A model generated the notes under the pieces. That model was not told where the DNA came from, did no database searches, and saw only the letters and a program-made list of their open reading frames with translations. The position numbers and the translations under genes are program-made. Below, one piece after another: positions 15,512-17,586 of a DNA stretch of 32,485 bases. Positions within the stretch are counted from its first letter, which is position 1. Each line of letters starts with the position of its first letter. Location: NCBI GenBank assembly GCA_902546145.1, contig CACCIT010000007.1:1-32485 (forward strand), read 5' to 3'. The DNA is from an uncultured Pelagibacteraceae bacterium (GTDB taxonomy: Bacteria > Pseudomonadota > Alphaproteobacteria > Pelagibacterales > Pelagibacteraceae).

Positions 15512-16639
15512 ATGGCTAAAAGAGACTATTATGATGTCCTAGGCGTTAAGAAGAGCGCAAGTCCTGATGAGCTTAAATCCGCATATAGAAAACTAGCAGT
15601 CAAATATCATCCAGATAAAAATCCAGGTGATTCAAAAGCTGAAGAAAAGTTTAAAGAAGCTAGTGAAGCTTACGGAATACTCTCAGATAAAGAAAAAAAA
15701 CAGAACTACGATAACTTTGGACATGCTGCTTTTGAGAATGGCGGTGGTAGACCAGGCGGTGGTTTTGGTGGTTTTAGTGGAGCTGATTTTTCAGATATTT
15801 TTGAAGATTTTTTTGGAGATTTTGGTGGTGGAGGGAGATCAAGAAACAGAAGGTCAAATAATAGAGGTTCAGATTTAAGGTACGATTTATCAATTTCGTT
15901 AGAAGAAGCTTATCATGGGAAAAAACAAGATATAAAATTTGCAACTACTGAACAATGTGGAACTTGCAAAGGTAATGGTTCAGAACCGGGTTATTCTCCA
16001 GACAGATGTTCTTATTGTGGAGGAAATGGAAGAATAAGATCTAACCAGGGATTCTTTACTGTTCAACAAACATGTCCACAATGTAATGGTAATGGTGAGG
16101 AAATTACTAATCCATGTAATGATTGTAATGGTCAGGGCAAAAAACAAGCATCCAAAAAAATATCTGTGACTATTCCTAAAGGTGTTGATGATGGCACAAG
16201 AATAAGACTTGCCGGAAAAGGTGAAGCTGGCAGCAGAGGTGGTGCTACAGGTGATTTATATTTATTTATAAATGTTAATTCTCATGAACTGTTTAAAAGA
16301 TCAGACGAAAACCTATTTTTTGAATTTCCTCTATCTCTTGCTGATGCAGCTCTTGGAACTACCATTGAAATACCTACAATTGATGGTGGGCGAGCAAAAA
16401 TAAAAATTCCAGATGGAACTCAAAATGGTAAACAATTTAGATTAAAAGGAAAAGGAATGCCATTTATGAGAAGAGGTGATTTTGGTGATTTATATGTTCA
16501 GGTAAAAACAGAGGTGCCTGTATACCTAAATAAAAAACAAAAAGAATTATTGGAACAATTTAGAGAAATAGAAAACGACAAATCAAATCCAAGTATTAAA
16601 AAGTTTTTTCAAAAAGCTAAAGATTTTTGGAAAAACTAA
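15512..16639 (+). CDS. dnaJ: DnaJ (Hsp40 co-chaperone)
   Basis: A 375-residue class A J-protein. The ATG at 15512 is used; an in-frame TTG just before it would add only one residue, and GGGG at 15501-15504 is a suitable Shine-Dalgarno site. The J domain (1-70) has HPD at 33-35. A Gly/Phe-rich linker follows (about 75-120). Next are four zinc-finger repeats, [24 protein letters not shown] and CNDCNGQG, and then the C-terminal substrate-binding domains. It delivers substrates to DnaK and stimulates ATP hydrolysis. It is cotranscribed with dnaK and followed after 3 bases by a tiny membrane-protein gene. Confidence 0.98.
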
Positions 16640-16642
16640 ATT

Positions 16643-16810
16643 ATGGAAATAGAGGAAATAATTCCATCAATAGCTTTAATATTAATACTAATTCTAATTT
16701 TACCTAGCTTCATAAAATCAAACTTTAAGAAAAAAGTATTTTTTAAAAATTTAAGTATTTGGGGTGTCATTATAATTGTTCTTGTGATACTTCTATATTT
16801 TATCACTTAA
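16643..16810 (+). CDS. Small two-helix membrane protein, function unknown
   Basis: A 55-residue open frame, ATG at 16643 and TAA at 16808-16810, filling the space between dnaJ and dapB. Residues 8-24 (PSIALILILILILPSFI) and 38-54 (SIWGVIIIVLVILLYFI) are strongly hydrophobic and separated by a basic loop (KSNFKKKVFFKN). This predicts two membrane helices, probably with the loop in the cytoplasm. It starts 3 bases after the dnaJ stop, and its TAA shares one base with the dapB ATG, the spacing of a translationally coupled gene. I do not recognise the family. Fit into the operon and clean hydrophobic periodicity support it as real, but no homologue comparison was possible. Confidence 0.7.
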   Translation: MEIEEIIPSIALILILILILPSFIKSNFKKKVFFKNLSIWGVIIIVLVILLYFIT

Positions 16811-17586
16811 TGAAAAAAATTAATTTAGCTATTTCAGGATGCATGGGAAGGATGGGTCAACAACTCATAAAATCCTCAAAAAAAAATAAAAATTTTAAAC
16901 TAGTTACTCTTACAGAGAATAGATTAGTAAATAAAAAATTTAATGGAATTAAACCTGAATTAAATTCTGATAAAGCATTTAAAAAAACCGATGTAATTAT
17001 TGATTTCACAGTACCAATGTGTACGCTTGAAGTACTTAAAATAGCGTCAAAACTAAAAAAAAAAGTAGTAATTGGTACCACTGGATTTACTAGAGCCCAA
17101 GAAAATCAAATTAAAAAATATTCAAAGAAAATACCAATTTTAAAAGCTGGTAATATGAGCTTAGGTGTAAATTTATTGATGTATTTAACTGAGATTGCTT
17201 CAAAATCACTAAATGAAGAATACTTGAGTAAGATATTTGAAATACACCACAAACATAAAAAAGACTATCCATCAGGTACTGCTTTAATGCTAGGTAAAGG
17301 AATAGCAGATGGAAAAAATAAAAATTTATATAATTTAATTGGTAAAAAGTTCTTGAATAAAAAATCGTTTCCTTATGGAAAAAAGATTAATTTTAACTCT
17401 ATTAGAAAAGGTGAAATTATTGGTGAACATGAAGTAAAATTTTCAAGTGGAAAAGAAATAATTACTTTAAACCATGAGGCTTTTGATAGAGCACTTTACT
17501 CTGATGGAGCTTTAACTGCATCCGCATGGCTAATAAAGAAAAAACCAGGATTATATTCGATGAGAGATTTGCTTAACTTTTCATAA
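16810..17586 (+). CDS. dapB: 4-hydroxy-tetrahydrodipicolinate reductase
   Basis: A 258-residue DapB, making tetrahydrodipicolinate for lysine and meso-diaminopimelate (peptidoglycan). The frame is open from 16759, but the ATG at 16810 is chosen. It gives MKKINLAISGCMGRMGQQLI with the nucleotide-binding GxxGxxG at the N-terminus, and it overlaps the preceding stop by one base. Other motifs: VIGTTGF, AGNMSLGVNLL, and the active-site block EIHHKHKKDYPSGTAL with the catalytic His and Lys. GEHEVKFSS and the tetramerisation region follow. The length is slightly under the E. coli enzyme (273) and nothing essential looks missing. nth follows with a one-base stop/start overlap. Confidence 0.96.
   Translation: MKKINLAISGCMGRMGQQLIKSSKKNKNFKLVTLTENRLVNKKFNGIKPELNSDKAFKKTDVIIDFTVPMCTLEVLKIASKLKKKVVIGTTGFTRAQENQIKKYSKKIPILKAGNMSLGVNLLMYLTEIASKSLNEEYLSKIFEIHHKHKKDYPSGTALMLGKGIADGKNKNLYNLIGKKFLNKKSFPYGKKINFNSIRKGEIIGEHEVKFSSGKEIITLNHEAFDRALYSDGALTASAWLIKKKPGLYSMRDLLNFS

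Follow-up and report, generated by a model that had tools for sequence, protein, structure and literature searches.

The window analysed here, a stretch of 32,485 nucleotides from an uncultured Pelagibacteraceae bacterium (assembly GCA_902546145.1, contig CACCIT010000007.1, positions 1 to 32,485), holds a short open frame between dnaJ and dapB. The dnaJ gene ends in a TAA at 16637-16639 and is followed, after a spacer at 16640-16642, by the ATG of the short frame at 16643-16645; the TAA of this frame at 16808-16810 has one base in common with the dapB ATG at 16810-16812 (TAATG). These coordinates agree with an earlier sequence-only reading, which had described a frame that fills the dnaJ-dapB gap, starts 3 bases past dnaJ and overlaps the start of dapB by 1 base. 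The features of the locus are:

15512..16639, plus strand: dnaJ, the upstream neighbour, given as context only (Pfam and NCBIfam DnaJ)
16643..16810, plus strand, stop codon included: gene for a 55-residue two-helix membrane protein, a standalone hairpin of the protease-anchor type (conserved frame)
16649..16723, plus strand: helix 1, residues 3-27 (AlphaFold2; F23 invariant and P21 nearly so in 69 sequences)
16715..16750, plus strand: basic loop region, residues 25-36 (from K+R content; cytoplasmic by inference)
16730..16804, plus strand: helix 2, residues 30-54 (AlphaFold2; N36 and W40 invariant)
16810..17586, plus strand: dapB, the downstream neighbour, given as context only (TIGR00036, Pfam DapB_N and DapB_C)

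Of 5000 dinucleotide shuffles made from the gap sequence, 4 contained a sense-strand stretch that stayed open for 55 or more codons after a start. Opposite the short frame, the antisense strand has an open frame of 56 codons as well (window 16636-16806, minus strand); openness by itself is thus weak proof of a gene, and conservation must decide. A protein search of 101 whole genomes of the genus gave 73 matches at E 5e-4 or better, in 72 of the 101 (89 of 101 in a looser tally of the same search, with E up to 1). None of the 73 contains an internal stop, and their open frames run to 52-83 residues, save for one of 41 at the end of a contig. In the dnaJ-dapB region all 43 copies, that of the window included, run 54-59 codons to the first stop; since these copies were cut at the first stop their openness is by construction, and the informative part is their uniform length. 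Within the same stretches the two remaining frames of the sense strand stay open in 0 and 1 of the 43 copies and the three antisense frames in 0, 20 and 0 of 43, the antisense frame open in 20 copies being probably a by-product of codon make-up.

The sequence-only reading had pointed to a comparison of the dnaJ-dapB gap across SAR11 genomes, looking for a conserved frame with synonymous-biased change, and the gap copies display both. Eleven of the other 42 copies from the gap region were each compared with the window copy: dN/dS was 0.23-0.35 in the 10 comparisons with dS above 0.2, and 0.68 for the nearest copy (L003), where dS is 0.06. Across 67 pairs differing by 3-25%, which are not independent of one another, the synonymous proportion was 0.39 and the nonsynonymous 0.12. 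In the alignment of the 69 copies, residues F23, N36 and W40 never vary, and P21 and N27 hardly do. Judged from these comparisons, the frame at 16643..16810 is a genuine gene under purifying selection. A chance open frame that is no gene could draw on the open antisense strand in the window, but it is refuted by the 43 copies of uniform length, a dN/dS of about 0.3 and a family found in the order and beyond, and we give it practically no credence.

The pair of hydrophobic segments with a basic loop between them that had been read from the letters is borne out by structure prediction and by composition. AlphaFold2, given 48 sequences, places helices at residues 3-27 and 30-54 with a mean pLDDT of 87.9 and a pTM of 0.43. 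In a hairpin profile built from Pelagibacterales sequences only (A1, from which the truncated copy L069 was left out), the loop carries a mean of 3.17 K+R per protein and the N-terminal tail 0.19 K+R and 1.36 D+E. The basic loop and the positive-inside rule together suggest a cytoplasmic loop with both the N- and the C-terminus in the periplasm. A search of solved structures returned one match, to a single helix of a light-harvesting protein (E 0.16), which was set aside.

The frame had also been described as unannotated-looking and without an obvious role. The first part stands, in that it is unnamed in the family libraries searched; the second does less well, as the protein resembles the membrane anchor of the TIGR02281 proteases (see below). 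Scans of the window protein against Pfam and NCBIfam returned no family at E up to 1, the AmaP anchor, SieB, SecG and other named small membrane families included. Its 69 aligned members did give scattered weak matches, to such named small membrane families too (best E 0.0006), and TIGR02281 is absent among the best 25 of the 31 families that they matched.

Profile A1 matched 77 of 147 genomes of the order, with one match per genome, a count that includes four partial matches at contig ends (G203, G219, G220 and G233) and a spurious one (G193). The 77 are made up of 65 of the 76 genomes of the same genus, ten of a sister genus, one of a second family and the spurious one; the named relatives retrieved are Pelagibacteraceae. 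The 11 of 76 same-genus genomes in which A1 found no match are 92-99% complete, so that their lack of the gene is likely real, and the hairpin gene is not required everywhere. A search with A1 across the class found standalone copies in several further families, while among viral contigs 153 pattern-matching stretches yielded no relative by tblastn.

The surroundings of the gene were determined by tblastn of neighbours for 70 of the 73 matches (the copies of G080, G086 and G089 were left out). Forty copies follow dnaJ and precede dapB, three have dnaJ only and one has dapB only. The remaining 26 lie between an ABC-2-type permease gene and a TauE-like gene (7), between nadA and ygfZ (7), beside DUF2237 and ETF-QO (7), or at other sites (5). 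In a second sample of 68 loci, which has four genomes in common with the first (G000, G009, G012 and G029), the dnaJ and dapB pair flanked 29 copies, nadA/ygfZ 9, ABC-2/TauE 9 and DUF2237/ETF-QO 6, with a single one of these neighbours in 10 and other surroundings in 5. The ABC-2 permease, TauE, nadA, ygfZ, DUF2237 and ETF-QO neighbours carry the names that we presume for them from their sequences. Distant standalone copies have yet other neighbours. The dapB locus was also obtained for 21 of the 29 genomes with no or only a weak hairpin match, and in seven of these loci (L072-L077 and L080) dnaJ and dapB are separated by 27-40 bases that contain no gene; in one of the seven, L072, DapB is 94% identical to that of the window.

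These counts bear directly on a role tied to the neighbouring genes, in which the protein, translationally coupled to dapB, would aid chaperone work or lysine/peptidoglycan synthesis. Such a role draws support from most of the listed gap copies, whose stop overlaps the dapB start or nearly touches it, and from the 40 of 70 copies flanked by both genes. With 26 of the 70 copies elsewhere, a general dnaJ/dapB role is already largely refuted, and the seven relatives with nothing between the two genes weigh against it further; we consider it very unlikely. The tie with the heat-shock operon, or with lysine and peptidoglycan synthesis, that the sequence-only reading had raised is likewise not supported, and a dnaJ/dapB operon protein of fixed position was rejected on the count of copies elsewhere. 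As the gene comes and goes and occupies several chromosomal sites, its neighbours give no definition of its role.

Several loci carry features of their own. A single genome among the 101, G070, has two good copies (L020 and L055), one in the dnaJ-dapB gap and the other beside nadA/ygfZ, which may be a relocation caught in progress or an assembly contamination. At L089, positions 964-1501, two opposite-strand membrane-like frames of 84 and 68 residues replace the hairpin between dnaJ and dapB. The interval between the hairpin gene and dapB at L047, L051 and L052 contains, on the opposite strand, a frame that would encode a small protein resembling a CxxC zinc ribbon, with palindromes TGATAATCATTATCA just upstream of dapB, which we take to resemble a Fur box.

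The resemblance to protease anchors emerged from a profile of 26 standalone hairpins (A2), 18 from Pelagibacterales and eight from other families, in which no protease was included. Of 385 genomes of the class, 140 had an A2 match with an E of at most 0.01. Among the matches listed, 33 of the 34 that cover the two helices and lie in frames of 150-420 residues are retropepsin-like proteases: 16 lie in frames previously found by their TIGR02281 domain and 17 others have the DTGA motif (5 + 12), and all seven of the 33 that were scanned against NCBIfam pass the TIGR02281 cut-off. The lone exception among these listed matches, L336, is without DTGA. At least 16 of the 46 TIGR02281 frames over the cut-off were found by A2 among the matches listed, a count that sampling also lowers. 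The N-termini of 46 proteases reached at most 6.1 bits when reversed and up to 36.9 bits in the forward direction, though those from L193 onwards were found with A2 and are not independent of it. The narrower profile A1 gave weak scores on 26 protease N-termini (best 8.8 bits, with reversed controls up to 4.2), and 5 of these 26 have no such hairpin. As far as these profile scores go, the link to the anchors is strong only when the profile includes distant standalone members.

The reverse search used a profile (A5) of the hairpins of 21 of 30 proteases that had first been chosen by their protease domain. Four of the 30 were left out as lacking the hairpin by eye (L153, L159, L164 and L171) and five as not placed (L148, L158, L166, L168 and L170), and L154 and L167 had their ranges moved manually. 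When A5 was run against 117 whole genomes of Pelagibacterales, all 28 of its matches at E below 1e-3 were the small hairpin gene, and the window copy is the sole match in its own genome (E 0.0076). At E up to 1 A5 found the hairpin in 32 of 50 listed genomes that have a full-length A1 match and missed it in 18. The first non-hairpin match, at E 0.00115, is a frame of 181 residues; four retrieved A5-matched frames of 172-181 residues, from the sister family, look like what we presume to be CvpA and were taken as chance.

A related model, built on 21 of 26 protease N-termini (the five dropped were the lowest scorers in an earlier N-terminus scoring), was applied to 5199 open frames, drawn from the window together with 120 loci. 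It placed 120 of the 121 hairpins at ranks 1-120, the window copy at rank 64 (E 2e-4), with the first other frame at E 0.32; the hairpin missed is the truncated L069. Because these decoys come from few kinds of locus, the A5 search of 117 genomes is the stronger control. Direct comparison of the profiles with hhalign aligned A2 to A5 over 56 columns (probability 97.6, E 3e-12) and A1 to A5 over 49 columns (probability 92.8, E 3.9e-7).

Transmembrane sequence is low in complexity and two hydrophobic helices can converge, so the SAR11 protein might be an unrelated two-helix protein that resembles the anchors only because both are short hydrophobic hairpins. The faint view that A1 alone has of the anchors, at 8.8 bits, and the 18 of 50 hairpins missed in the reverse direction would fit such a reading. 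It sits poorly with a specificity that holds both ways across whole genomes, 33 of 34 among the matches listed in one direction and, below an E of 1e-3, 28 of 28 in the other, with reversed controls that stay so far below the forward scores, and with a first non-hairpin reverse match that comes only at E 0.00115 in a frame presumably CvpA-like. We regard convergence of this kind as improbable.

The class searches with the standalone profiles A1 and A2 also returned, among the matches listed, a recurrent second kind of match, at profile positions of about 24-55 in frames of about 620-700 residues (from E 1.7e-5 up to the cut at 0.01). One of these frames, L130, was scanned and is FtsH, and the others are presumably FtsH from their length and the place of the match. 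This similarity raises an action on FtsH itself, in which helix 2 of the hairpin would imitate FtsH transmembrane helix 1 and bind or tune the FtsH complex. FtsH is a large AAA protease of which one helix matches, weakly, helix 2 of a protein that has two helices and 55 residues; the matches are mostly much weaker than the best retropepsin anchors, and convergence on an N-x-x-x-W interface motif would explain them. The window protein has no Pfam match at E up to 1, and so none to the AAA and M41 domains of FtsH, and by eye none of the neighbouring frames inspected was recognised as FtsH. On balance we think it unlikely that FtsH is the target of the hairpin.

No recognisable TIGR02281 protease accompanies the hairpin in the Pelagibacterales genomes searched. 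TIGR02281 was found in 0 of 61 Pelagibacterales genomes and then in 0 of 20 further ones, and PF13650 in 0 of 40 genomes of the genus, with a Caulobacter control positive in both TIGR02281 searches and in that for PF13650. Outside the order, of 28 genomes tested that have a small-frame match, 27 are without a TIGR02281 protease (the exception is G561), against a TIGR02281 match in 53 of 190 genomes of the class; as relatives are non-independent and not all 28 were read (G534, G508 and G413 are included with their sequences unread, and G469, which has a small-frame match, was left out), it is only suggestive that the standalone hairpin tends to occur without the protease there. A possible picture of how a hairpin may be left alone is offered by G342, where a locus of TIGR02281 type (L322, G342:C4:381900-383400) has a hairpin frame open for 142 codons with the catalytic part out of frame.

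The TIGR02281 proteases are clan AA aspartic proteases of Alphaproteobacteria, many of which likewise have a two-helix hairpin, with a similar loop length and a conserved tryptophan near the start of helix 2; their C-terminal end would lie outside, as would that of the SAR11 hairpin. They continue after helix 2 into a C-terminal domain, some 121 residues long, that bears the DTGA active-site motif, whereas the SAR11 protein stops there. By profile searches and profile comparison the window protein has the N-terminal membrane hairpin of the family; with 55 residues and no NCBIfam match at E up to 1 it lacks the clan AA domain, and no protease partner was found in the same genome in the Pelagibacterales searched. 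As the defining domain is absent, the window protein is not a member of the TIGR02281 protease family.

The Caulobacter match to TIGR02281 is presumably PerP, an enzyme with a known substrate, unlike the SAR11 hairpin with its lack of a catalytic part. PerP acts in the periplasm of Caulobacter as the protease that cleaves PodJ (PMC2714070) and is cited as a bacterial retroviral-type protease, a placing that is not universally accepted (PMC4140852). The latter source describes APRc (RC1339) of Rickettsia conorii as a retropepsin-like protein with three predicted N-terminal membrane helices and a C-terminal domain predicted to lie outside, of which a dimeric form accumulates and which is reported in the outer membrane (PMC4140852). 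APRc thus resembles the SAR11 hairpin in its predicted N-terminal membrane helices, which in APRc stand ahead of an outside-facing protease domain, and differs in having three predicted helices, an active protease and a reported outer-membrane location, the two being likened by description only. By analogy, the layout and the dimer of APRc fit an anchor reading, while its outer-membrane location sits badly with a plain inner-membrane anchor; the passages on which we draw make no mention of a hairpin on its own.

Our searches, taken with these comparisons, lead us to favour a reading in which 16643..16810 probably encodes an inner-membrane hairpin that is homologous to the TIGR02281 anchor, has no protease domain and may bind another envelope protein. 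The frame would be translated into a small two-helix hairpin of the inner membrane, which may serve as an element for protein-protein interaction within the membrane. It would probably self-associate in the manner of the anchor of a dimeric retropepsin, and it may bind or position another protein of the envelope. In origin it could be the survivor of a lost protease, or an older module that proteases also came to use. A bolder proposal, which we put forward as an outside chance, is that the anchor is an autonomous and old envelope regulator of Alphaproteobacteria, which SAR11 kept and relocated after the catalytic part was lost and which acts through another machine, possibly FtsH.

Our literature search returned no paper on a standalone form of a retropepsin-type hairpin, and nothing on a small membrane protein of SAR11 or on dnaJ together with dapB in Pelagibacter; TIGR02281 turned up in a single paper, which to judge by its title concerns Tilletia. 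SAR11 bacteria have some of the most streamlined genomes known, and in many of these genomes the 55-residue gene is maintained under selection, at several chromosomal sites. The hairpin profile can be used to annotate standalone copies in other Alphaproteobacteria. An anonymous small frame is thereby turned into a testable question: what function has the anchor when it stands by itself, and is this also its function within the full-length proteases?
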